From positions 6,448,001 to 6,512,000 of the forward strand of contig NZ_VFOZ01000001.1 of the NCBI RefSeq assembly GCF_006716425.1: DNA of 64,000 bases, in the 5' to 3' direction. The position numbers were made by a program, and so were the translations under genes. Origin of the DNA: Actinoallomurus bryophytorum. Lineage in GTDB: Bacteria; Actinomycetota; Actinomycetes; Streptosporangiales; Streptosporangiaceae. Shown one piece after another: positions 25,785 to 48,950 of this stretch (positions are counted from its first letter, which is position 1; every line of letters begins with the position of its first letter). Under the pieces are notes generated by a model. The model was given only the letters and a program-made list of their open reading frames with translations. It was not told the origin of the DNA and searched no databases.

Positions 25785-26558
25785 TCAGGCGGCGGGGTCG
25801 CCGGCGAGGGGGTTGTCGGACAGTGTCACCGCGTCCCCTTGCAGCGGGCGGACGTCGACGCCGAGTGCGTCCGCGACGACGACGTGGCGGTCCGGTACGG
25901 GGATCCAGCCGGGGTCGTCGTCGTGCGGCTCGCTGGCCACCAGTACGCCGTCCTCCTCCGCCCGGTAGCAGAGCGTCTCGGCCCATGTCGTCGCCACGAT
26001 CCGGGTGCCGTCGGTGGCGAGCAGGTTCAGGCAGGCGCCCGGGTCGAGTGCGGCCAGTTCGTGCAGGAGCCCGGTCACGGCGGACTCCAGCGACAGGCCG
26101 CGGTCGAGGCGCTGCCACAGCAGCGTGGCGAGCAGCGCCGCGTCGCACGTCGACTCCGGCACGTATCCCGGCTCCAGCAGATGTGTGGTCTTCTCCCGGC
26201 TGACGTGGCCGTTCAGGCTGAGCAGGCAGCCGCCGTTGGTGAAGGGCGCGGTGGCGGCCTCCTCGATCGGCATGCCGGGGCTCGCGCCGCGGACCGCGCC
26301 GAGCACGCAGGACGCCGAGATCTGCGCGGCGAGCGCGGCGAACCCCTCATCGGCCTCGAACGGCACCGCCCGACGGTAGGACATCGCGGGAACCGGCTCA
26401 CCGGGCGGGAACCAGCCGGCCCCGAACCCGTCACGGTTGACGAGGTCGATGTTCTGCCAGCGCGGCCTGGCGGCCTGGCGCGGCAGCCCGTACGAGGGTT
26501 CGAGGATGAGTTCGGCCAGGGTCCGTGGCCTGCCCAGCCAGGCGAAGTGACGGCACAT
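25785..26558 (-). CDS. Class II glutamine amidotransferase, EgtC-like
   Basis: This 257-residue Ntn-hydrolase begins MCRHFAWLG, so Cys2 becomes the N-terminal nucleophile after Met removal. Family motifs are NRDGFGAGWF, GAVRGASPGMPIE, LLSLNGHV and VASEPHDDDPGW. It closely resembles EgtC, which removes gamma-glutamate from gamma-Glu-hercynylcysteine sulfoxide in ergothioneine synthesis. No egtB, egtD or egtE homologue is nearby. It is the last gene of an operon with an asparagine-synthase-type amidotransferase (54 bp upstream) and a ligase fusion. It may therefore deglutamylate the product of that pathway rather than ergothioneine (inference). Confidence 0.85.
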   Translation of the reverse strand: MCRHFAWLGRPRTLAELILEPSYGLPRQAARPRWQNIDLVNRDGFGAGWFPPGEPVPAMSYRRAVPFEADEGFAALAAQISASCVLGAVRGASPGMPIEEAATAPFTNGGCLLSLNGHVSREKTTHLLEPGYVPESTCDAALLATLLWQRLDRGLSLESAVTGLLHELAALDPGACLNLLATDGTRIVATTWAETLCYRAEEDGVLVASEPHDDDPGWIPVPDRHVVVADALGVDVRPLQGDAVTLSDNPLAGDPAA

Positions 26559-26612
26559 CTACGTGGGTTCCCCTTTCGCTGATTACGTTGGCCAAGAGGG
26601 TGTCTGACACCC

Positions 26613-28379
26613 TTATGCTCCGTGCGCCTGGAGCCAGAGCTCCAGCAGCGCCAGTTGCCACAGCGCACTGGCGCCCAGAGTCGTCCGGTGCTCGTCGGGC
26701 GCGGCCAGCAGCTCGTCGACGTGGTCCTGCCGGAACAGCCCACGTGACTTCGCCGCCGGGTCGTGCAGCGCCTCGCGCACCAATTCAAGATAGGGACCGG
26801 ACAAGTGACGGATCGCGGGCACCGGGAAGTACCCCTTGGTCCGGTCGATCACTTCGTCGGGCACCATGCCCCGCGCGGCGTCCTTCAACACGCCCTTGCC
26901 GTCGGCGGCGAGCTTGAGTTCGGGCGGGCAGGACGCGGCCAGCTCGACCAGCTCGTGGTCGAGGAAGGGGGTGCGTGCCTCCAGGCCCCAGGCCATCGTC
27001 ATGTTGTCGACGCGTTTGACCGGGTCGTCGACCAGCATGACGGTGGTGTCGAGCCGCAGGGCTGCGTCGAGCGCGGTATCCGCGCCCGGCGCGCCGAGAT
27101 GCGTGCGCGCGAAGTCGCCGCTGACGTCGTTCTCCAGCAGGTACGCCGGGCTGAGCACGCCGGCCAGTGCGGAGTGCGGCCGGTCGAAGAACACCTTGGC
27201 GTAGGCATCGGTGACACCGGCCCGCGGGACGCCGGCGAGCGGCGGATACCAGTCATATCCGGCGAAGACCTCGTCCGCCCCCTGACCGGACTGCACGACC
27301 TTGACGTGGCGTGCGACCTCCTGGGACAGCAGGTAGAACGCGACGGCGTCGTGGCTGACCATCGGCTCGCTCATCGCCGTGACCGCGCCCGTGAGCGCGG
27401 GCAGCAGCCGTGAGTCCTCGATCCGGATCTGGTGATGGTCGGTGCCGAACCGCTCGGCGACCAGGTCGGAGTAGGCGAACTCGTCGCCCGACTCGCCGCC
27501 CGCCGAGGCGAACCCGATGCTGAACGTTTTCAGGTCCCGCTGCCCGGCCTCGGCCAGCAGCGCCACGATGAAGCTGGAGTCCAGTCCGCCGGACAGCAGC
27601 ACGCCGACGGGCACGTCGGCGACCATCCGCCGGTCCACCGCGGTCCGCAACGCCGCGAGCACCGCGTCGCTCCAGTCGTCGCGGCTCAGGTCCCGGGTGA
27701 ACGAGGGCCGCCAGTAGACCAGGTCCTCGGCGCTGCCGTCCGGCCGGATGGTGCGCACCGTGGCGGGAGGGAGCTTCTGCACCGAGGTGAAGATCGTGCG
27801 CGGCGGCGGCACCACCGAGTGGAAGGTCATGTAGTGGTGGAGCGCCGCCAGGTCGATGTCGGTGGAGATGCCGCCGCCGGCCAGCAGCGCGGGCAGGGTG
27901 GAGGCGAACCTCAGCCGCCGCGCGTCCCGCGTGACGTACAGGGGCTTGATGCCCAGGCGGTCACGGCCGAGGACGACCAGCCCGGAGTCGCGCTCGACGA
28001 TGGCGAAGGCGAACATCCCCATGAAGCGGCCGACGCACTCGGCACCCCATCGGTGGTAGGCCTTGAGCAGGACCTCGGTGTCAGAGGTGGAGAAGAACCG
28101 GTAGCCCTCGGCTCGCAGCTCCTCGCGCAGGTCCTTGTAGTTGTAGAGACAGCCGTTGAAGACCGCGGTCAGGCCCAGGTCGCTGTCCGTCATCGGCTGG
28201 GCGGCACGGTCCGACAGGTCGATGATCTTCAGGCGCCGGTGGCCGAGCGCCACCGGGCCCTGGGACCACAGGCCGCTGCCGTCCGGGCCGCGGGGCTCCA
28301 TCGCCCGGGTCATCGCCGCCACGGCGGTGACGTCGGCGACGTCACCGTCCAGCCGGATCTCTCCGCTCAGTCCGCACAT
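26613..28379 (-). CDS. Asparagine synthase-family amidotransferase (N-acetylglutaminylglutamine amidotransferase-like)
   Basis: This 588-residue two-domain enzyme has an N-terminal class II glutaminase starting MCGLSGEI (Cys2 nucleophile; RGPDGSG, FNGCLYNYKDL, DRLGIKPLYV). The C-terminal ATP-pyrophosphatase synthetase has PP-loop SGGLDSSF, followed by the motifs FSIGFASAGG, GQGADEVFAGYDW and ARTPFLDHELVELA. It resembles the amidotransferase of the N-acetylglutaminylglutamine amide (NAGGN) osmoprotectant trio rather than housekeeping AsnB. It would convert a carboxylate to an amide using glutamine. It lies 36 bp after the ligase-fusion gene and before the EgtC-like gene. The usual NAGGN partner (GNAT-ATP-grasp) is missing and is replaced by a different ligase. 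Confidence 0.88.
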   Translation of the reverse strand: MCGLSGEIRLDGDVADVTAVAAMTRAMEPRGPDGSGLWSQGPVALGHRRLKIIDLSDRAAQPMTDSDLGLTAVFNGCLYNYKDLREELRAEGYRFFSTSDTEVLLKAYHRWGAECVGRFMGMFAFAIVERDSGLVVLGRDRLGIKPLYVTRDARRLRFASTLPALLAGGGISTDIDLAALHHYMTFHSVVPPPRTIFTSVQKLPPATVRTIRPDGSAEDLVYWRPSFTRDLSRDDWSDAVLAALRTAVDRRMVADVPVGVLLSGGLDSSFIVALLAEAGQRDLKTFSIGFASAGGESGDEFAYSDLVAERFGTDHHQIRIEDSRLLPALTGAVTAMSEPMVSHDAVAFYLLSQEVARHVKVVQSGQGADEVFAGYDWYPPLAGVPRAGVTDAYAKVFFDRPHSALAGVLSPAYLLENDVSGDFARTHLGAPGADTALDAALRLDTTVMLVDDPVKRVDNMTMAWGLEARTPFLDHELVELAASCPPELKLAADGKGVLKDAARGMVPDEVIDRTKGYFPVPAIRHLSGPYLELVREALHDPAAKSRGLFRQDHVDELLAAPDEHRTTLGASALWQLALLELWLQAHGA

Positions 28380-28415
28380 CGGCGCATCCCCATTTACCGT
28401 CCTCTTCGCGAAGTG

Positions 28416-30935
28416 TCACTGCATCAGCCAAGTGTCCTTGGATCCGCCTCCCTGCGAGGAGTTGACGATGCGGCTGCCGGCCGGCGCCACACGGGTCAGT
28501 GCCATGGGTACCACCACCGGGTCGTCTCCGGCGCAGACGAATACTCGCAGGTCGACCGCTCTCGGTTCCAACCCGCCCTTCACGAACGTCGGATGGGTCG
28601 ACAGGCGCACGGTCTCCTGTGCCACCCAGCGATCGGGGTCGGCCTCGATCAGGCCGCGGACCTCGGCGAGCTCACGGGGCGAGGCGTCCGGGCCGATGAC
28701 CACGCCCTGGCCGCCGTACCCGTCCACCGGCTTGGCCACGAGCTCCTCCAGCCGGTCGAGCACCTCGGCGCGCTGGCCGGAGTCACGGCAGAGGTAGGTC
28801 GGCACGTTCGGCAGCAGCGGCCGCTCGCCGAGGTAGTACTCCACGAGCCGGGGCACGTACGCGTACAGGGACTTGTCGTCGGCGACCCCGTTGCCGGGGG
28901 CGTTGGCGAGCCGGAGCGTCCCGCGTTCGAGGGCGTCCAGCAGGCCGGGGCCCAGCGGGCGGCCGTCCGCCCCCTCGGCGCCGAACAGCTCGTCCTCGTC
29001 GATGCGCCGGTAGAGCACGCACAACCGGTCGCCGCCGGTGGTCCGCACGCCGTCGCCGTCCACGACCAGCTCGCCGGGCCGGACCAGGGGGATGTCCATC
29101 TCGTCGGCGAGCAGCCGGTGCTCGAAGAACGCCGAGTCCTCGGGACCGAGGGTGATGAGGGCCGCGTCGGACGAGGCGGCGGTCAGCGCCGCCTTCAGCA
29201 TGGACACCGCCCGGGCGGGTGAGGGCGTGTGCGCGGCCAGTACCAGCTCGGGCAGCACCCGGCCGGCGAGCCAGCGGTTGGCCATCGCGTACCCGATGCC
29301 GGAGGGTACCCGCAGGTTGTCCTCGAGCACGGTCCAGCGGCCGGCTCCGTCGCTGACCAGGTCGATGCCTGCCACGGCGCAGCGTACGACGCCGTGCGGC
29401 ACCCGGTATCCGGCCTGGTGCAGGCCGGGGGAGTCGTCGATCGTCCAGGCGGGGACGATGCCGTCACGTACCGCCGAACGCTCCCCGTAGGCGTCCTGCA
29501 GGAACGCCTCCAGGGCGCGCACCCGCTGCGTCAGCCCGGTCCGCAGGAACTCCCAGTCCTCCGCGGTGACCACCCGGGGCACCAGGTCGAACGGGAACAG
29601 CCGGTCCTCCTCGCCCTCGAGGTGGAACGTCATGCCCAGCCCGCGCTGGACCTCGTCGCGCCGCCGCTCGCGGTCGCGCAGCCCGTCGGCGCCGATCCGG
29701 TCCAGCGCGGTCAGCACCATGCCGTAGGGCCCGCGGGCGCTGCCGTCGAAGACGATCGCCTCGTCGCACGACGCGTCGTAACCGGCCAGCATCTCGGTCA
29801 CCGCACGGCGTGCCGGACCGGCGCCCGGCACCCAGTCGGTGTTGGCACGGGTCTCGGCGACCAGCAGGTCAACGACCTCCGCCAGGCCGCCGCGCGCGAA
29901 CGCCTCGCGCTGGCGGGCGGCCGAGCTGCCACGCGCCAGCGCGGCCTCGGTCAGCTCCGTGACCAGCTCCCAGTCGCCGGCGGCCTCCAGCCGGGGACGC
30001 TGCCGCTCCAGAAGCCTGCGCAGCAACTGCCGGGCCGGCACCGGGGTGCCGTCGGCGGGGTCGACGAGCTCGCCCTCCAGACCGGAACGCGCGGCCCGCC
30101 ACGTCGCGGCCCGTACGACCTCGGTACGGGTCGCGGACGCGGGGCGCCCGGCGGTCACGGCGTCGATCTCCTCGACGACGATCGCGCGGAACAGGCCGGC
30201 CAGCAGGACGACGTCCTCCAGGCGCGGGCAGGCGTCGGCGATCCGCAGCTCCAGTGTGGGCAGGTGCGCGGACGGCCGGACATCGAAATAGATCATGCCG
30301 GGATCGGTGATCGCGCCGGAGCTCACGAGGTCGGCGACCATCGCGTCGTACTCGGCGGCGGACCCGAACGCGCCGAGCGGTCCGGTGGTGGGCCAGCGCG
30401 ACCACAGCAGCGTGCGGTAGCTGGCGTACCCGGTGTCAGTGCCCAGCCAGAACGGTGAGCTGGCCGACAGCGCGAGGAGCGCCGGCAGCCAGGGCGACAC
30501 CCGGTGTGCCACGGCCACCGCGAGGTCGCGGTCGCCGACGTCGACGTGCACCTGGGCGCCGCAGATGAGCTGTTCGCGCGCGAGCAGCTGGTACTCGTCC
30601 AGCATGTTCTCGTAGCGCGGGTCGGGTGTGACCTTGAGCGACTCGAGGTCCGCGACGGGCACGGTGCCGGCCGCCACGATGCCCATGCCGAGCCCCTCGG
30701 CCGCCGCCACGACACCGCGGCGCAGCGCCGCGAGGTCCTCGGCCAGGTCGATGAGCCGGACGTACGGGCGGCTGTTGGTCTCCACCACCGACCGCTGCAA
30801 CTCCGCGCCGAAGCGCTCCTGCGGGAGCTGTGCGAGCAGGCTGTCGGCCCTCGGGATGAGCCGGCGATCCTCCAGGTCGACGGTGTGGAACTCTTCCTCG
30901 ACACCGATCGCCACGAGCTCGGTCCGTTGTGCCAT
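28416..30935 (-). CDS. Carboxylate-amine ligase (GCS2/YbdK type) fused to circularly permuted ATP-grasp
   Basis: This 839-residue fusion has residues ~1-370 as a GCS2-family glutamate-cysteine ligase-like domain (VAIGVEEEFHTVDLE, ICGAQVHVDVGDR, TLELRIADACP). Residues ~390-839 are a type-2 circularly permuted ATP-grasp (EDRLFPFDLVPRVV, GLTQRVRALEAFL, TVLEDNLRVPSGIGYAMANR, AKPVDGYGGQGVVIG). Both halves form amide bonds at ATP cost, so one polypeptide could make two successive peptide bonds, possibly starting from glutamate. It is first in a three-gene operon with two class II amidotransferases. The start ATG has no Shine-Dalgarno, and a -10-like TACTCT ends six bases before it, so it is probably leaderless. 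The product is unknown. Confidence 0.86.
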   Translation of the reverse strand: MAQRTELVAIGVEEEFHTVDLEDRRLIPRADSLLAQLPQERFGAELQRSVVETNSRPYVRLIDLAEDLAALRRGVVAAAEGLGMGIVAAGTVPVADLESLKVTPDPRYENMLDEYQLLAREQLICGAQVHVDVGDRDLAVAVAHRVSPWLPALLALSASSPFWLGTDTGYASYRTLLWSRWPTTGPLGAFGSAAEYDAMVADLVSSGAITDPGMIYFDVRPSAHLPTLELRIADACPRLEDVVLLAGLFRAIVVEEIDAVTAGRPASATRTEVVRAATWRAARSGLEGELVDPADGTPVPARQLLRRLLERQRPRLEAAGDWELVTELTEAALARGSSAARQREAFARGGLAEVVDLLVAETRANTDWVPGAGPARRAVTEMLAGYDASCDEAIVFDGSARGPYGMVLTALDRIGADGLRDRERRRDEVQRGLGMTFHLEGEEDRLFPFDLVPRVVTAEDWEFLRTGLTQRVRALEAFLQDAYGERSAVRDGIVPAWTIDDSPGLHQAGYRVPHGVVRCAVAGIDLVSDGAGRWTVLEDNLRVPSGIGYAMANRWLAGRVLPELVLAAHTPSPARAVSMLKAALTAASSDAALITLGPEDSAFFEHRLLADEMDIPLVRPGELVVDGDGVRTTGGDRLCVLYRRIDEDELFGAEGADGRPLGPGLLDALERGTLRLANAPGNGVADDKSLYAYVPRLVEYYLGERPLLPNVPTYLCRDSGQRAEVLDRLEELVAKPVDGYGGQGVVIGPDASPRELAEVRGLIEADPDRWVAQETVRLSTHPTFVKGGLEPRAVDLRVFVCAGDDPVVVPMALTRVAPAGSRIVNSSQGGGSKDTWLMQ

Positions 30936-30946
30936 TGGCAGAGAGT

Positions 30947-30957
30947 ACGTCGGACGT
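30947..30957. promoter_or_regulatory. Palindrome upstream of ligase operon
   Basis: ACGTCGGACGT is a perfect 11-bp palindrome just upstream of the predicted -10 of the ligase operon. GGACGT recurs 11 bp further on (30963-30968), giving helically phased half-sites. It is a possible regulator-binding site. Confidence 0.4.
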
Positions 30958-31079
30958 GTTACGGACGTATGTCACAAAATGCGTACATCCGCGTGTCAGG
31001 GTGACCCGGCGCGGATCCTCAAGTGGGTGGCACGGATCGTCAATGACCGCGGTCCGTCTCCGTACCAACACTGAGAGGC

Positions 31080-37372: not shown

Positions 37373-38866
<1,494 letters not shown>

Positions 38867-41581: not shown

Positions 41582-44500
41582 TTACGAGACGGGACGGTAG
41601 GTGACGGCGCGCAGGTTCGTGAGCCTGGCCTTGAGATCCTCCGCCCACCAGTGGGCGCCGAAGCTCCGGTACAGCCGCACCGACTCGGTCACGGCGGTGC
41701 GGGCCTCGTCGGGCCGGTCGCCCGCCGCGAACAGCCCGGCCGCCTCGGCCAGCGCCTCCGCCCGCTCCAGGCGGCGCCCCACCTCGCGATAGTGCGCGGC
41801 CGCGCGTACGGCGAGGCCGGGCTCGCGGAGGGCCAGGGCCTGGCATCGGTACAACGCCATCTGCGCCCCACGGGATCCGACCGTCCGGCGGGCCTCGCGC
41901 CGCGCCGCCTCCATGACGCGGTCGACCTTGTCCTGGTCCGCCATTTCCTGTGCCAGGCGCAGGAGATACGGAAACCATTTGTAGGGCGTCTGCAGGGGAG
42001 CGAACTCCGGGTCGAGCGAGGTCTCTCCCAGCTTCGCGAACGCGGCCGCCGGGTCTCCTTCGTGCTCCAGCTCGAACGCCTCGGCGCGGAGGAAGAAACT
42101 GCAGGCCTCTCTCTCCACCGCACCCTCGATGGGGATCGGCCGAAGGGTGTCGAGGTGGCGCGCCACCGCCGGCCGGTCGCCGCGGAGCTGGCAGATGTAG
42201 GCGGCCAGACCGTGCCCGATCAGGTTGGCGGACGGGCCGACCTCCGCCATCACGCCCAGAGACGTCGCGTCACTGGGCCGGCGGACCGACTCGAGCGCGG
42301 CGAGGTCGGCATCCCACGCGCCGGTCCAGAAGTGGTGCAACGCCTCCGGTATCCACATCAACGCCGGATCGGTCCGGTCCTTGTCCGCGTGGCAACGCTC
42401 GATGACCTCGGCGGCCTCGGGGAACCGGTCGACGTAGTGCAGGGAGTGCACCAGCAACTCGTGGAGGTCGGCCTGCGGGCCGTCGGCCTCCGGGTGCGCG
42501 CGGATCAGCTCGATGGCGTCGCGCACGTTCTCGAGCGCGGCCGGATGATTTCTCGCCGCCGTGTTGGAGTACCAGGACGCGGTGAGCCGGTGCACGACCG
42601 CGACGGGATCCGCCGCGGGCGTTCCAGGTGAGCCTTCGGCCCGCGGTACGCGGAACCTGCTCGCGTCGACCGCCCTCTCCAGGTGCCTCATGAGCAGGCG
42701 CCGGCGTGTGTCCCAGACCTGCGGGACCAGGGGGCCGGAACGGGTGCGATTCAGGGTCTCGACGCCGGCCTCGGGGCGGCCGGCTCTCAGCTGTACCGCC
42801 GCCAGGAGCAGGTTGAGCTCGGCGAGGTGAACGGGATCCACCGCGGTCGCGAGGACCTGCCTGATCGAGGACTCCGGCAGTCGCGCCAGCCGGAAGAGCA
42901 GGCGGACCAGGATCATGCGGAGCGTCTCCCTGGTCGCCCGGTCCATCCGGCATTCGAGGAGCGCACGCTCGATGAGCTGCGCCGTCACCTCAGGTGCCGT
43001 GTCTCCCAGGTGCGGGGCGTTGGCCGAGAGCCACTCCACGGCCCAGTCGTCCATGTCGGTGTCCTCACCCACCAGGTGTTCGGCCACCGAGACCCCGGGA
43101 GCTCCCGTGACGGCGAGGGCCCTCGCCGCCTGCGCGTGCATGACGCCGCGGAAGGACCGGGCGATCTCCTCGTAGACGACCTCTCTCAGCAACGGGTGGC
43201 GGAAGCGCAGCCGGTCGCCGGCGTCGACCAGCAGACCGGCGGAGACGGACTCCTCGATCGAGTCCTGAAGCTCGTTCCGCCCGGCGGGCATCAGGACCTC
43301 GAACAGCCGCTGGACCGGCACGTCATCGCCGAGGACGGCGAGCCAGCGCAGCATGTCCCGGGAGTGCTCGGACACCGTACGGCTCGCCCGGTCGAGCGCC
43401 GACTGCAATGTACGCGGCGCGAGACCGGCCTGCCGGGGCTCGACCGTCGCCATGCCGTCGACGATCTCGATCGACTGCGTTCGCATGAGGCCGCGGACCA
43501 GCTCGGTGATGTAGAGGGGGTTCCCCTCGGCGCGGGTGGTCAGCCGCCGCAGGATCGGCCCCTGCCGGGCGCCGACCAGGTGTCCCGTGAGCTCGTCCGC
43601 CTCGCCCGCGGACAGCGGTCCGAGCCGCACGACCGTCCCGCCGGTGGCCGCGACACGGTCGTGCACCGCGGACATGCCGGTGCCCTTCCAGCCGGACCTC
43701 GCGGTGGTGACCAGGAGCAACGGCATCTCACCGCTCGCCGGCAGGAGACGCTCGACCAGGCGCAGGGTCACCGCGTCCGCCCAGTGCAGGTCGTCCAGGA
43801 CCAGCACCAGGGGACGTTCGGCGCACAGCGCCTCGATGTGCTCGCGTAGCCGCCGGCTCGGGGCGTACGTCGGGTCCTGGGTGGCGAATCCGTAACCCGC
43901 CGGCTCCGGTTCCCACAGGTTCTGCGCCAGCAGGGCGCGCTCGGTCTCCGCGGTCTCGGGATGGATGCCCAGGCAGTCCAGCATGACCTGAAGGGGGAAC
44001 CGGGAGGTGAGTTCGTCCGCCGTCGCCCAGGCGACGTGATGGTCGCGCCGGTCCGGCTCGTGCAGCGCGACGGCGACGACCTCGGACTTGCCGATGCCCG
44101 GGTCGCCCTCGAGCCAGACCGAGCCGCCACGGCCGTGCCGGAGCTCGGCGAGGTGGTGGCGCAGCAGATCCAGTACGTCCGTGCGTCCGACGAACCGGGG
44201 TGCGGCGGGCCGGCGGACCGCGGCCGGCCCGTGCTGTGACTCAGGCGCGGCCGGCTTCCGTACCGCCGTGCCGGGTCCGTCATCGGTGAGGATCCGCTGG
44301 TGCAGCCGCCGCAGGGACCCAGAGGGCTCCGCGCCGAGTTCGCGGCGCAGGATCTCTCTCGTGTCGCTGAAGAGGGCCAGCGCCTCGACGTGGCGGCCCG
44401 CCCGGTGCAGCGCGCGCATGCGCAGTTCGCGCAGCGACTCCCGCAGGGGGAACAGGTCGATCAGGGACGCCAGCTCGGCGGCGACCTCCGCGTGCGCGCC

Positions 44501-45028
44501 GTGTTCCAGCCGTGCCGCCGCGTGTGCCTCCTGCGTGGCCAGCAGCGCGGCGCCGAGTTGTTCCCGCCTCGATTCGGCGAACGGTCCGGGCACACCGGAC
44601 AGGGGCTCGCCGCGTGAGAGGTGGAGCGCCCTGGCGTAGGTCTCGATGCCCTTCCTGTCGTCGCCGCCCGCGACCAGGGCCGCCGCCTCGGCGCTCAGCC
44701 GGGTGAACGCGGTGAGGTCGAGCGCCTCGGGCGGGATCGCCAGTCGATAGCCGTCTCGGTCCGACACGAGAAGGTCGGGTGCGCCGGCGGCCGCGAGAGC
44801 GCGTCGCAGCCCCGCGACGTACGTGTAGACGCTGCCGTCGGCGGTGGCCGGCGGCCGTGCCCCCCAGAGGGCGTTGACGAGTTCGCGACGCGTCACGGCA
44901 CGGCCCTCGCCGCTCGCGAGAACCACGAAGGCGGCCAGCCGCAGGCCGGAGCCCAGCGCGACCGGCCGGGCGTCCACGGACATGCGCACCGGGCCCAGGA
45001 GGTCGACGCGCGGTGAGGTTCGGGCCAT
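41582..45028 (-). CDS. Large BTAD (SARP-type) NTPase regulator
   Basis: This 1148-residue regulator has an N-terminal OmpR-like DNA-binding domain (residues ~8-95: VDLLGPVRMS, RRELVNALWGARPP, VYTYVAGLRRAL) and BTAD at ~100-250 (LDLTAFTRLSAEAAAL). An AfsR/MalT-type NTPase follows, with Walker A GDPGIGKS at 308-315, Walker B LVLVLDDLHWAD and TTARSG. About 500 residues of TPR-like helices complete it. Unlike its divergent neighbour it has no C-terminal LuxR HTH. Such proteins switch on secondary-metabolite or differentiation genes after sensing a ligand or ATP state. The target cluster is not evident in the window. Confidence 0.9.
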   Translation of the reverse strand: MARTSPRVDLLGPVRMSVDARPVALGSGLRLAAFVVLASGEGRAVTRRELVNALWGARPPATADGSVYTYVAGLRRALAAAGAPDLLVSDRDGYRLAIPPEALDLTAFTRLSAEAAALVAGGDDRKGIETYARALHLSRGEPLSGVPGPFAESRREQLGAALLATQEAHAAARLEHGAHAEVAAELASLIDLFPLRESLRELRMRALHRAGRHVEALALFSDTREILRRELGAEPSGSLRRLHQRILTDDGPGTAVRKPAAPESQHGPAAVRRPAAPRFVGRTDVLDLLRHHLAELRHGRGGSVWLEGDPGIGKSEVVAVALHEPDRRDHHVAWATADELTSRFPLQVMLDCLGIHPETAETERALLAQNLWEPEPAGYGFATQDPTYAPSRRLREHIEALCAERPLVLVLDDLHWADAVTLRLVERLLPASGEMPLLLVTTARSGWKGTGMSAVHDRVAATGGTVVRLGPLSAGEADELTGHLVGARQGPILRRLTTRAEGNPLYITELVRGLMRTQSIEIVDGMATVEPRQAGLAPRTLQSALDRASRTVSEHSRDMLRWLAVLGDDVPVQRLFEVLMPAGRNELQDSIEESVSAGLLVDAGDRLRFRHPLLREVVYEEIARSFRGVMHAQAARALAVTGAPGVSVAEHLVGEDTDMDDWAVEWLSANAPHLGDTAPEVTAQLIERALLECRMDRATRETLRMILVRLLFRLARLPESSIRQVLATAVDPVHLAELNLLLAAVQLRAGRPEAGVETLNRTRSGPLVPQVWDTRRRLLMRHLERAVDASRFRVPRAEGSPGTPAADPVAVVHRLTASWYSNTAARNHPAALENVRDAIELIRAHPEADGPQADLHELLVHSLHYVDRFPEAAEVIERCHADKDRTDPALMWIPEALHHFWTGAWDADLAALESVRRPSDATSLGVMAEVGPSANLIGHGLAAYICQLRGDRPAVARHLDTLRPIPIEGAVEREACSFFLRAEAFELEHEGDPAAAFAKLGETSLDPEFAPLQTPYKWFPYLLRLAQEMADQDKVDRVMEAARREARRTVGSRGAQMALYRCQALALREPGLAVRAAAHYREVGRRLERAEALAEAAGLFAAGDRPDEARTAVTESVRLYRSFGAHWWAEDLKARLTNLRAVTYRPVS

Positions 45029-45467: not shown

Positions 45468-48400
45468 ATGGAGGTCGGGCGGCTACGGGTGGAGCTTCTT
45501 GGCCCGGTACGACTGACAGGGGGGCGACGCGAGCTGCAGGCCGGCTCGGCGAAGCAGCGGCTCGTTCTCGCGGTCCTGGCGCTTCAGGCGGACCGGGTGG
45601 TCTCCCGTGAGGCGCTGATCGACGCGGTCTGGGGTGAGGAGCCGCCGGACGCCGCGGAGGACGGCCTGTACACCTACGTCTCGCGACTGCGAAGAGTGCT
45701 GGACCCGTCACGTACCGGCGAGATCCTGGTGACGGAGGGCAGCGGGTACCGGCTGCGGGCCGACGCGGTGGAGGTGGACGTCGAGGAGTTCGTCCGGCTG
45801 GGCGAGCTCGGCCGCCGCCGTGGTGAGGCCGGCGACCCGGACGGAGCGCTGGACGCCCTGGAGTCCGCGCTGGGCCTGTGGCGCGGCGAGCCGCTCTCCG
45901 ACGTCCAGGGCTCCTTCGTCACCGCGCAGCGCGCGCGGATGACCGAGCTGCGGCTGCTGGCCGTCGAACGACGTGCCGGTGCCCTGATCCAGCGCGGGCG
46001 GCAGGCCGAGGTCATCACGGACCTGACACCGCTGGTCGCCGAATATCCGCTGCGGGAGGAGCTCAACGCCCTGCTGATGCTCGCGCTGCACGAGAACGGC
46101 GGGAGCGCCGAGGCGCTGGAGGTTTTCGAACGTGTCGAGATGACGCTGGCGGACCAGCTCGGGCTCGGGCCGGGAGACCGGCTCCACGGGATGCGCCAGC
46201 GGGTCCTGGACAAGCTCCTGCAGCGGCCGCTCGCCGGCCGGTCGGCCGAGAAGGCGCTCCTGCGCGAACGGCTCGCGGACCTGCGAGCCGGCCAGGGGAG
46301 CGTCATCTGGGTCGAGGGCGGGCCACGGGTGGGAAAGTCCGCGCTGCTCGCCGCCGGCATGGCCGGTGCGGAGGAGTCCGGCTGCCGGGTGTTCCGGCTG
46401 GCGGCGGAGGACGGCGGTCCCAACTCACCGGCGGACCTGATGCGGTGCTTTCGCGGCATCGAGGCCGACCCCGCCGAGCCCGTCTACGTGACCATCGACC
46501 GGCTCGTCAGGGACGTACGCGCCATGTGCGACCGCCGGCCGATCCTGCTGGTCGTCGACGACTTCCACCACGTGGACGAGGGGGGACTGCTCGCCTGGCG
46601 GCGGCTGGTCAAGGTCGCGGCGGACCGGCCGCTCTGCCTGGTCGCGGCCGGCAGGCCCGACGAGAACAGGAGAGAGCTGCGACGGCTGGCCGAGACGATC
46701 TCCAACGTCGGTCATGCCATCGAGCTGAAGCCGCTCGGCGAGGCCGGGGTGGCGGAGCTGGTGACCGACGTGACGGGTACGGCGCCGGGACCGGAACTGC
46801 TCGAGGTGCTCGGCTGCGCGGCGGGAAACCCCGGCCGGTTGATCGACATCATCGAGGCGCTGGCCTCCGCCTCCCTCCTGAGGATCGAAGAGGGGCGGCT
46901 CGTACTCGCCCGCGCCTACTACGAGGACACGCTGAGCGAGGTCGTACGGCCGTGGCTGAGGGTCCTCACGCAGCCCTGCCTGCGGCTCGTACGCGCCGCG
47001 GCCCTGCTCGGCTTCGAGTTCGACCTCGACGACCTCACCGCCCTGCTCGGGCAGGCTCTGCCCGCGCTGGCGCGCCCGCTCTCCGAGGCCGTCGAGAACG
47101 GCGTCCTCCGCCAGCTCGGCCGGCGGATGGCGTTCCAGCACCCGATGCTGTGCCGGGCGGTCGAGCTGACCTCGCCGGAGTCGGAGAGACCGATCCGGCA
47201 TCGCGAGGCGGCCCGCGCACTGGAGGAGGCCGGCGCGATGCCCGATCGCGTCGCCGCGCAGCTCCTGCTCGCCGAGCTCCCGCCGGACGCCTGGACGATC
47301 CGCTGGCTGCTGACCCATGCGGAGGTTCTGGCGATCCAGGCGCCGAAGCTCGCGGTGGGGCTGGTCGAGCGCGTGCTGGCCTGGCGGGGTCTGCGCAGCG
47401 CCAGCCGGGTGGATCTCACGGCACTGCTGGTCCGGCTGGTGTGGAGGCAGGGCGGGCGGCCGGTGGAAGAGGCCGCCTTCGTCGAGCTGGCGACGACGGA
47501 CGCCGAGCTGGCGGCGGAGATGCGGCTCGTCACCGCCTACCTCCAGTCCGACGGGGGGGAGCCGGCGGTCGCACAGGACACCATCCGGCGAGCACTGGCC
47601 GACCCGGCCCTGCACGTGCGCTGGCGGATACGGCTCGAGTGCCTGCGGGGGCAGATCGAGTACGCCGAACACGGGCGCGACTTCGCGACGAAGGCCGTTC
47701 GTGCCGCGGAGGAGGCCGGCGACGTGCTGGGAGTCGCGTACGCGCGACACCGGCTCTGGCAGCTTCAGTGGCAGCTCGGCGATCACGATGGCGCGCTGGC
47801 TCATGTGGAGGCGGGCATCGAGGCGGTCTCGGGGCAGCGGGACGCCATCGAGGTCGAGCTGGGGCTGTGGGGCGACAAGGTCTTCAGCCTGCAGCAGCTC
47901 GACCGGCTGGAGGAGGCCGAGCGCGCGCTGGCCACCGCGCGTGCGCTGGCGATCCGCCGGGGAGTCGCCGGTGGGATCGCGCCGCTGGCGGCGGTGCACT
48001 GGTACTGGTTGGGGCGATGGGACGACGCGATCGCCGATCTGGAGTACACGATGTACGACGGCTGGTACTGCCTGCGGCGCAGTGGGGTGTTCCGGCTGGT
48101 ACAGGGGCTACGGGCGGTCATCGCCGCGCACCGGGACGACTCCGTCGGCCTCGAGGCGGCGCTCAAGACCACCTGGTCATCGGGCGAGGAGGCGACGCGG
48201 ACCGCCACGTTCGACTTCCTGCTGGTCGGTGCAGCGATGGCGGCCGAGCAGGACGGCCGTCCGCTCGACGCGCTGGCCATCCTCGAGCCGCTGCTGTCCG
48301 GCCCGGCCACCGGCGGCGTGGCGGCGCACCAGTGGCTGCCGCGGATGGCGCGGCTGGCCGTCGAGGTGGGCGACCTCCCGCTCGCGCGCAGGATCGTCGC

Positions 48401-48950
48401 GGCCTGCGAGGCCGAGGCGGCGAAGGAGTGGAGTCCCGCGCGAGCCGGCGTGACGCTGCGGTGGTGCGCCGGGTTGGCGGAGTCCGACCCGGAACCGGTG
48501 CTCGCCGCCGCCGAGCGGTTCGCGGCGCTCGGGCGCAGGATCGAGCAGGCGATGGCCCTGGAGGACGCGGCCGGGATCTTTGCCCGTTCGTCGATGATCC
48601 AGGCCGCGGCGCTCCATGGTCATCAGGCGATGGAGCTCTACGCCGAGCTCGGGGCTCTGTGGGACCTCCGCCGTACCGAGACGCTCCTGGCCGGCCACGG
48701 GATCGTGAGGGCCGGGGGGCGCCGGGCGCCGTCACACCTCTCCCCGACGGAGTACAAGGTCGCCGAGCTGGTCGCCGCCGGATGGGCGAACGGCGAGATC
48801 GGCATGGCCCTGTCACTGCCGCGTGCCGCCGTACAGGAGCACATCCTGAACGTCGTCGCGAAGACGGGCGCCCGATCCCGGCTGTCCGTCACCCCCCAGC
48901 TGGTCGAGTCCCTGCGGGGCTCGGCGGGCACCGGCCGTCCGCGGGGCTGA
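45468..48950 (+). CDS. Large BTAD NTPase regulator with C-terminal LuxR helix-turn-helix
   Basis: This 1160-residue protein has an OmpR-like DNA-binding domain (RVELLGPVRLT, REALIDAVWGEEPP, LYTYVSRLRRVLDP), BTAD (~100-250) and an NTPase with Walker A GGPRVGKS at 284-291 and Walker B ILLVVDDFHHVDE. A TPR-rich middle follows, then a C-terminal LuxR HTH (HLSPTEYKVAELVAAGWANG, EIGMALSLPRAAVQEHILNV). It therefore has two separate DNA-binding modules. The ATG at 45468 starts the conserved domain; GAGGAG precedes it. It is divergent from a paralogue whose LuxR part is a separate gene. Confidence 0.9.
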   Translation: MEVGRLRVELLGPVRLTGGRRELQAGSAKQRLVLAVLALQADRVVSREALIDAVWGEEPPDAAEDGLYTYVSRLRRVLDPSRTGEILVTEGSGYRLRADAVEVDVEEFVRLGELGRRRGEAGDPDGALDALESALGLWRGEPLSDVQGSFVTAQRARMTELRLLAVERRAGALIQRGRQAEVITDLTPLVAEYPLREELNALLMLALHENGGSAEALEVFERVEMTLADQLGLGPGDRLHGMRQRVLDKLLQRPLAGRSAEKALLRERLADLRAGQGSVIWVEGGPRVGKSALLAAGMAGAEESGCRVFRLAAEDGGPNSPADLMRCFRGIEADPAEPVYVTIDRLVRDVRAMCDRRPILLVVDDFHHVDEGGLLAWRRLVKVAADRPLCLVAAGRPDENRRELRRLAETISNVGHAIELKPLGEAGVAELVTDVTGTAPGPELLEVLGCAAGNPGRLIDIIEALASASLLRIEEGRLVLARAYYEDTLSEVVRPWLRVLTQPCLRLVRAAALLGFEFDLDDLTALLGQALPALARPLSEAVENGVLRQLGRRMAFQHPMLCRAVELTSPESERPIRHREAARALEEAGAMPDRVAAQLLLAELPPDAWTIRWLLTHAEVLAIQAPKLAVGLVERVLAWRGLRSASRVDLTALLVRLVWRQGGRPVEEAAFVELATTDAELAAEMRLVTAYLQSDGGEPAVAQDTIRRALADPALHVRWRIRLECLRGQIEYAEHGRDFATKAVRAAEEAGDVLGVAYARHRLWQLQWQLGDHDGALAHVEAGIEAVSGQRDAIEVELGLWGDKVFSLQQLDRLEEAERALATARALAIRRGVAGGIAPLAAVHWYWLGRWDDAIADLEYTMYDGWYCLRRSGVFRLVQGLRAVIAAHRDDSVGLEAALKTTWSSGEEATRTATFDFLLVGAAMAAEQDGRPLDALAILEPLLSGPATGGVAAHQWLPRMARLAVEVGDLPLARRIVAACEAEAAKEWSPARAGVTLRWCAGLAESDPEPVLAAAERFAALGRRIEQAMALEDAAGIFARSSMIQAAALHGHQAMELYAELGALWDLRRTETLLAGHGIVRAGGRRAPSHLSPTEYKVAELVAAGWANGEIGMALSLPRAAVQEHILNVVAKTGARSRLSVTPQLVESLRGSAGTGRPRG

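Follow-up and report, generated by a model that had tools for sequence, protein, structure and literature searches.

A three-gene operon on the minus strand of Actinoallomurus bryophytorum, lying in a window of 64,000 nucleotides (the whole stretch of DNA analysed here, from contig NZ_VFOZ01000001.1 of a 9.47 Mb genome), is probably a variant of the pathway for the osmolyte N-acetylglutaminylglutamine amide (NAGGN) and not an isolated oddity, and its peptide product is probably one that has seemingly gone undescribed. In NAGGN synthesis, Ngg adds an acetyl group to one glutamine and links it to another, and the amidotransferase AsnO amidates the end (PMC8070244). The window operon pairs an AsnO with a different ligase, a fusion of a GCS2 domain and an ATP-grasp domain, and adds an EgtC-like hydrolase. 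We give an even chance to the specific proposal of a NAGGN pathway in gamma-glutamyl form, with a product like gamma-Glu-Gln-Gln-NH2. The proposal is built on the gene content of the operon and its conservation, the alternation of GCS2 and Ngg beside AsnO, a single origin of GCS2-linked AsnO on one quick tree, the near-identity of the AsnO groups and the fold matches of the fusion. An earlier reading, made from the letters of the window alone (the sequence-only reading), had placed the three open reading frames correctly in coordinates, strand, gaps (36 and 54 bp) and enzyme families, as follows.

28416..30935, minus strand: GCS2/circularly permuted ATP-grasp fusion (gene 1), 839 residues, with an N-terminal YbdK-type GCS2 and a C-terminal circularly permuted type-2 ATP-grasp
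30078..30905, minus strand: GCS2 domain of the fusion, residues 11-286 (Pfam PF04107, 191 bits; YbdK/GCS2 model TIGR02050, 291.5 bits against a cut-off of 176.4)
28485..29579, minus strand: CP_ATPgrasp_2 domain of the fusion, residues 453-817 (Pfam PF14403, 389 bits against a cut-off of 32; PDB 3n6x)
26613..28379, minus strand: AsnO-type amidotransferase (gene 2), 588 residues, N-terminus Met-Cys-Gly (TIGR03104, 964 bits)
25785..26558, minus strand: EgtC-like class II amidohydrolase (gene 3), 257 residues, N-terminus Met-Cys-Arg-His (TIGR03442, 218.5 bits)
30942..30963, minus strand: promoter-like element whose TANNNT box lies 6 nt 5' of the fusion ATG, a motif kept among the trio loci

The operon is real, conserved and coherent. 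Among 297 genomes of the host family, close orthologs of gene 3 (at least 57% identity) occur in 21, the window's own included; AsnO stands directly before gene 3 on the same strand in all 20 of the others, and the fusion precedes AsnO in 19 of these, the contig of the remaining one (L117) ending inside AsnO. The surroundings of the 21 loci are mostly different, as 175 of the 210 pairs share no flanking-gene homolog within 9 kb or the available contig. The other 35 pairs have one or more such homologs in common, mostly pairs within L130-L135 or within the group of L120, L121, L128 and L129 (up to seven, between L133 and L134), and the flanks of the window share only weak homologs (at most 57%) with three trio loci. 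The sequence-only reading had proposed conservation of the exact trio as a check on itself: the gene order is kept in these family genomes, but the trio itself is not widespread. In a sample of 394 genomes of the class no exact trio was found beyond the host family; gene 3 (E 1e-66) was matched in five, namely the window genome (100%) and four genomes that all belong to a different family, f17, probably Frankiaceae (50–56%), and in all four of those the EgtC-like gene lies far from the fusion or on another contig. What is widespread instead is GCS2 (with or without ATP-grasp) and AsnO with an S9 peptidase as the third gene.

A promoter-like motif, CGNAACA followed after 7–11 bases by TANNNT ending 6–7 nt before the fusion start, accompanies the operon. 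Of the 20 upstream regions of trio loci examined, 9 carry its strict form (L117, which has no fusion start, being left aside), and in a subset of 18 of the 21 loci it was found in nine, against a mean of 0.03 in shuffled sequences. The strict motif occurs in two of 30 S9-type loci, and a GTAACC/TAGNGT look-alike in several f17 loci. The arrangement suggests a shared regulator and a leaderless mRNA.

In the fusion, the ATP-grasp half (residues 394-838) aligns by sequence with PDB 3n6x and the GCS2 half with YbdK. The expected positions at both active sites are invariant in alignments of 22 and of 29 sequences, among them D525, E538, N540 and K735 of the ATP-grasp half, which we take to be the conserved acidic and lysine residues of ATP-grasp enzymes; intact motifs had been reported from the letters alone, and so they are, if these presumed roles are right. 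When an AlphaFold2 model (mean pLDDT 85, pTM 0.73) was compared by Foldseek, the best matches were 3n6x and YbdK, then glutathione synthetases, a plant glutamate-cysteine ligase (GCL) and glutathionylspermidine synthetase. These matches come without residue ranges and the placement of 3n6x and YbdK rests on the sequence alignments; we infer that the glutathione synthetase folds match the ATP-grasp half. GshF also holds a gamma-glutamyl ligase and an ATP-grasp peptide ligase in one chain, and the likeness to GshF-type enzymes and glutathionylspermidine synthetase extends to fold matches with glutathione synthetases, with 3ln7 and with 2io7/2io8. The fusion differs from these in its YbdK-type GCS2 and type-2 permuted ATP-grasp, in an identity of only 11–17% and in its amidotransferase partner. 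Its closest named relative, at 88% identity, is in an Actinoallomurus metagenome-assembled genome (MAG).

Gene 2 is an AsnO of the NAGGN type by score (964 bits against a TIGR03104 cut-off of 570) and by its Pfam domains, GATase_7 and Asn_synthase, and is 62–65% identical to the AsnO of Sinorhizobium and Azospirillum; the cysteine of its Met-Cys-Gly start is presumably the class II glutaminase nucleophile. The usual partner, the GNAT-ATP-grasp protein Ngg, was said by the sequence-only reading to be absent, which is true of the locus and of the entire genome: a genome-wide search with TIGR03103 found none, the best match scoring 179 bits against a cut-off of 569. The idea of a hidden Ngg elsewhere was dropped, as that match is a cyanophycin-synthetase-like protein. 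The description of a self-contained operon of these enzyme families is thereby supported. It might still be argued that NAGGN itself is made, with the acetyltransferase and ligase encoded elsewhere and the fusion serving another role, as the score of AsnO and a published reading of Frankia (PMC5563000) would favour. This is very improbable, given that Ngg exceeds its cut-off in none of the 21 trio genomes and that GCS2 and Ngg never meet at one AsnO locus among the 165 collected.

The last point comes from a wider survey, in which AsnO was sought at E 1e-150 and a gene counted as being with AsnO when within 3.5 kb on the same strand. AsnO was found in 106 of the 394 class genomes, at 107 places: 49 with Ngg (18 of them also with M42), 49 with GCS2, six with S9 or ATP-grasp and no GCS2 seen, and three with none of these. 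The GCS2 tally comprises 48 from the 106 loci scanned and one, G208, assigned by coordinates; among the six, L165 and L166 are flanked by little sequence, and the contig of L086 is short. Ngg and GCS2 were together at none of the 107 places, nor at any of the 165 AsnO loci that include the family trios and named records (with some duplicates between collections). The 106 scanned loci gave no case of S9 with Ngg, nor any of M42 with GCS2 (none of 48); no M42 peptidase lies beside the window AsnO. Because no locus has both Ngg and GCS2, the partners of AsnO are seen to fall into two alternative sets. The first is Ngg, whether or not M42 accompanies it; the second is GCS2, in many cases as the ATP-grasp fusion, together with S9 or, within the host family, an EgtC-like protein. 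The separation extends to whole genomes: in a tested subset of 68 actinomycete genomes with the fusion or GCS2-linked AsnO, Ngg exceeded its cut-off in one, both positive-control records being positive. That one genome (G064, locus L182) has an Ngg of 855 bits, no AsnO at E 1e-60, and a fusion with an S9 peptidase.

Among named organisms, the second set occurs in Streptosporangium canum, Actinoplanes, Micromonospora noduli, Pseudonocardia, Mycobacterium, Microbacteriaceae and Streptomyces, and the Frankiaceae carry it too. In these S9-type operons the first two genes and their order are as in the trio, and the difference lies in the third, an S9 prolyl-oligopeptidase-family protein where the trio has its EgtC-like one. 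The gene after AsnO in these relatives was at first guessed to be Ngg; Pfam assigns it to the S9 peptidases, and the guess was given up. The association of AsnO with GCS2 at 49 of 107 places also bears on the suggestion that the ATP-grasp and N-terminal nucleophile (NTN) hydrolase form a peptide-tagging or amine-utilisation system, with AsnO an unrelated passenger. In 2009 Iyer et al. reportedly proposed tagging systems in which permuted ATP-grasps go together with NTN peptidases, and the fusion does occur without AsnO in some genomes, but neither that association nor the glutathione-synthetase-like folds of the fusion would be expected of it, and we give this explanation the least credence of those weighed here.

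The AsnO proteins of the two sets are closely alike. In a comparison of 22 Ngg-linked rows with 76 GCS2-type rows, 189 of the 260 positions conserved at 95% in the former are the same at 95% in the latter, and near-fixed differences (90% in each group) number just three, at positions 523, 565 and 569, all within the last 70 residues. The 76 rows include seven placed there by S9 or ATP-grasp only (L159, L165, L193, L247, L264, L265 and L297), GCS2 being absent from the 3.5 kb around them, as well as L117, cut before the fusion. AsnO thus appears to have been left almost unaltered by the exchange of its partner enzyme. A quick tree search was made with 103 rows, comprising 101 of the 165 loci (filtered at 88% identity, with all EgtC-type rows retained) and two outgroup rows. 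On it the passage from Ngg-linked to GCS2-linked is one change, the 76 GCS2-linked rows forming one group inside the Ngg-linked lineages (support 80). The 21 EgtC-type rows form one clade inside the S9 type (98 by the Shimodaira–Hasegawa-like approximate likelihood-ratio test, SH-aLRT), with an S9-type group of Streptosporangium, Sphaerisporangium and Nonomuraea as sister. Judged from these sequences, the EgtC version is a later branch of the S9-type GCS2-linked operons.

The resemblance to the NAGGN operon, with its AsnO, Ngg and often M42, is one of plan: a homologous AsnO, a two-domain capping and ligating enzyme and often a third hydrolase, with the AsnO tree nesting the trio within the Ngg-linked type. 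The parts differ, the trio having GCS2 and a permuted ATP-grasp where Ngg has GNAT and a RimK-type ATP-grasp, and an EgtC-like third gene instead of M42, in a host genome without Ngg. In the proposed pathway the GCS2 half would place a gamma-glutamyl rather than an acetyl group on an amino acid, of which glutamine is the likeliest. The ATP-grasp half, whose fold is glutathione-synthetase-like, would add a second residue, and AsnO would amidate the terminal carboxylate, to give a gamma-Glu-Gln-Gln-NH2-like peptide, net neutral and a plausible compatible solute. Operons that have no ATP-grasp half would make gamma-Glu-Gln-NH2. The order, gamma-Glu-X and then Y, is suggested because the fusion is read like glutathione synthesis, and X and Y would most simply be glutamine because AsnO is conserved between the Ngg-linked and GCS2-linked groups.

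Whether such a peptide would be an osmolyte or a thiol had been left undecided in the sequence-only reading, and we favour the osmolyte-like side because so little sets the trio AsnO apart from its Ngg-linked counterpart. A thiol or other specialised metabolite, with cysteine or an unusual amine as acceptor, is improbable. It would suit the presence of glutamate-cysteine ligases among the GCS2 models, and in several Frankiaceae loci the operon is adjoined by AhpC-family and CMD-family proteins; however, the mere three near-fixed differences in AsnO speak for a carboxyl end of the same kind, and the EgtA model scores the fusion at 27 bits against a cut-off of 371.

The EgtC-like hydrolase would cut the gamma-glutamyl bond, most likely draining the pool when it is not needed; its gene holds the place that M42 has in many NAGGN operons and S9 in most relatives. 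Gene 3 falls marginally under the EgtC cut-off (218.5 against 218.65 bits), the trio ortholog in L118 scoring 211.9 and the genome's own ergothioneine EgtC 261.8. Positions C2, R90, N116, G117 and D139 are invariant in a 28-row alignment (which omits the trio proteins of L124 and L134 and those of L137, L139, L146 and L153, and has L148 shortened), and by analogy with class II amidotransferases we take Cys2, Arg90, Asn116-Gly117 and Asp139 to form the gamma-glutamyl pocket. One branch (100/100, midpoint root) separates the 19 trio proteins in it from the nine other EgtC-like rows. The twelve remoter EgtC-like loci of the family (at most 53% identity) have neither fusion nor AsnO nearby, and L138, scanned gene by gene, has EgtB and EgtD over their cut-offs and EgtA just under.

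Gene 3 is homologous to EgtC of the ergothioneine pathway (EgtA/B/C/D), and GCS2 belongs to the EgtA superfamily; gene 3 differs from the pathway's EgtC in its own branch and in scores at or below the cut-off, and the host has a separate egtABCD. These genes lie at about 988–993 kb of contig C1 of the window genome (G000), some 5.5 Mb from the trio, all over their cut-offs (EgtA 380, EgtB 423, EgtC 262 and EgtD 383 bits, EgtB being scored at this stretch); no EgtE-like gene was found among five proteins scanned there. The statement that all other ergothioneine genes are absent was thus right for the locus, where EgtA, EgtB and EgtD do not accompany gene 3, and wrong for the genome. The thought that gene 3 is a displaced ergothioneine EgtC was discarded, as egtABCD carries its own. 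No trio gene thus fills a gap in an egt or NAGGN set elsewhere in the genome, egtABCD including its own EgtC and Ngg being absent.

The direction of the hydrolase matters for the product. The sequence-only reading had the EgtC-like enzyme remove a temporary gamma-glutamate cap as the last step, as in ergothioneine synthesis, to leave a dipeptide amide, for example Gln-Gln-NH2; this is one of two readings, and we think it unlikely. In its favour, GCS2 and EgtC catalyse opposite reactions and EgtC serves biosynthesis in the ergothioneine pathway, close gene 3 orthologs are always in the trio operon (20 of 20), and the closest solved structures to gene 3 by sequence are EgtC entries (PDB 4zfk/4zfj/4zfl). 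Against this, an unrelated S9 peptidase stands in the same place in most relatives, and the third-gene peptidase looks dispensable in NAGGN operons. Draining of the pool is favoured because the peptidase is lacking at the Sinorhizobium NAGGN locus and was seen near only one Ngg-type locus of family f4 (probably mycobacteria), and also because the authors of PMC5563000 suggest that the peptidase balances the pool.

Several observations weigh against the gamma-glutamyl NAGGN variant. The substrates and the product are inferred throughout, as are the role of that product and the direction in which the hydrolase acts. The branch uniting the GCS2-type AsnO has a support of just 80 in a quick tree, and seven of its 76 rows owe their type to a neighbouring S9 or ATP-grasp, GCS2 being absent within 3.5 kb. 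The fusion, present in about 45 of the 394 class genomes (41 as a single match and four in two pieces, with one more split over contigs), is accompanied by no AsnO at E 1e-60 in eight of the ten tested genomes in which none adjoins it, and in four of those an S9 gene adjoins the fusion. The fusion can therefore act without amidation and has a separate life of its own, and strict coupling of fusion and AsnO was rejected. Nonomuraea and most of the Streptomyces operons seen have GCS2 without ATP-grasp (Streptomyces sp. DvalAA-14, L195, has the complete fusion, unlike most), and a fixed three-residue product is therefore not assured. Two reports on Frankia bear on osmotic induction. A glutamine amidotransferase of Frankia alni, FRAAL1888, was 2.2-fold up in polyethylene glycol and was assigned to NAGGN by the authors (PMC5768760), which would speak for the proposal if FRAAL1888 is the AsnO of a GCS2-type operon; in Frankia CcI6 the induced osmolyte genes named in the accessible text were for trehalose, glutamate and threonine synthase, not asnO (PMC5563000).

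The published record can be set beside the two partner sets. The original work on NAGGN synthesis is said to be that of Sagot in 2010. The asnO operon of P. aeruginosa is reported to be induced by osmotic stress (PMC8070244), which counts in favour of the proposal; osmotic induction of the GCS2-type operon is only suggested. NAGGN is reported to be a major metabolite of a Micromonospora strain from the Mariana Trench, for which PMC8146288 reports asnO and ngg, and the Ngg-linked AsnO therefore accompanies NAGGN in an actinomycete. According to PMC5563000, Frankia from Casuarina has an "asnO-ngg" cluster in which AsnO is more than 60% identical to others and "Ngg" less than 15%, with a dipeptidase between them. 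Many f17 loci have AsnO, S9 and then a small GNAT of 141–144 residues (L047:3845-4267, L048:11881-12312), and because the gene order matches, the gene called Ngg there is probably this small GNAT, the upstream ligase going unmentioned. The claim that no pathway with this gene set is described stands in so far as our literature search recognised no report of the GCS2-ATP-grasp/AsnO operon (Iyer 2009 may list the fusion); it is qualified by that Frankia cluster, seemingly an S9 relative, having been printed as asnO-ngg. Literature on gamma-glutamylglutamine as a compatible solute gave plant or soil work only, which is not to the point.

Taken together, these results lead us to a broader proposal, held tentatively and a little short of even: a second, undescribed branch of the NAGGN family in actinomycetes, in which Ngg gave way, on a single occasion, to a gamma-glutamyl tripeptide synthase of glutathione-synthetase-like kind, to yield a new class of gamma-glutamyl peptide amides, M42, S9 and EgtC-like proteins being unrelated hydrolases recruited to one step, and some "NAGGN producers" recognised by AsnO only, Frankia included, making the new peptide instead. 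If this were true, AsnO annotation alone would no longer imply NAGGN, an unseen compatible solute would be predicted across a wide range of actinomycetes and the published Frankia reading would probably be corrected. The pathway would have kept its finishing enzyme while swapping its capping chemistry once and its hydrolase twice.

Individual loci depart from the common layout. In the Streptosporangium canum operon the S9 peptidase is followed by an additional GCS2 that stands alone (L184:12551-13639), and a Modestobacter MAG (L247) has the order AsnO, S9 and permuted ATP-grasp in a locus where GCS2 found no match. An actinomycete-type operon is also present in a MAG labelled Nevskia (Gammaproteobacteria; L199); its AsnO falls with those of Mycobacterium-labelled loci, and a binning error is the probable reason. 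Elsewhere in the window a ketol-acid reductoisomerase-family protein is encoded at 37385-38866 (plus strand), with no branched-chain amino acid gene among eight other window proteins scanned, and two adjacent, divergent and related BTAD/AAA (SARP-like) regulators lie at 41582-45028 (minus strand) and 45597-48950 (plus strand).

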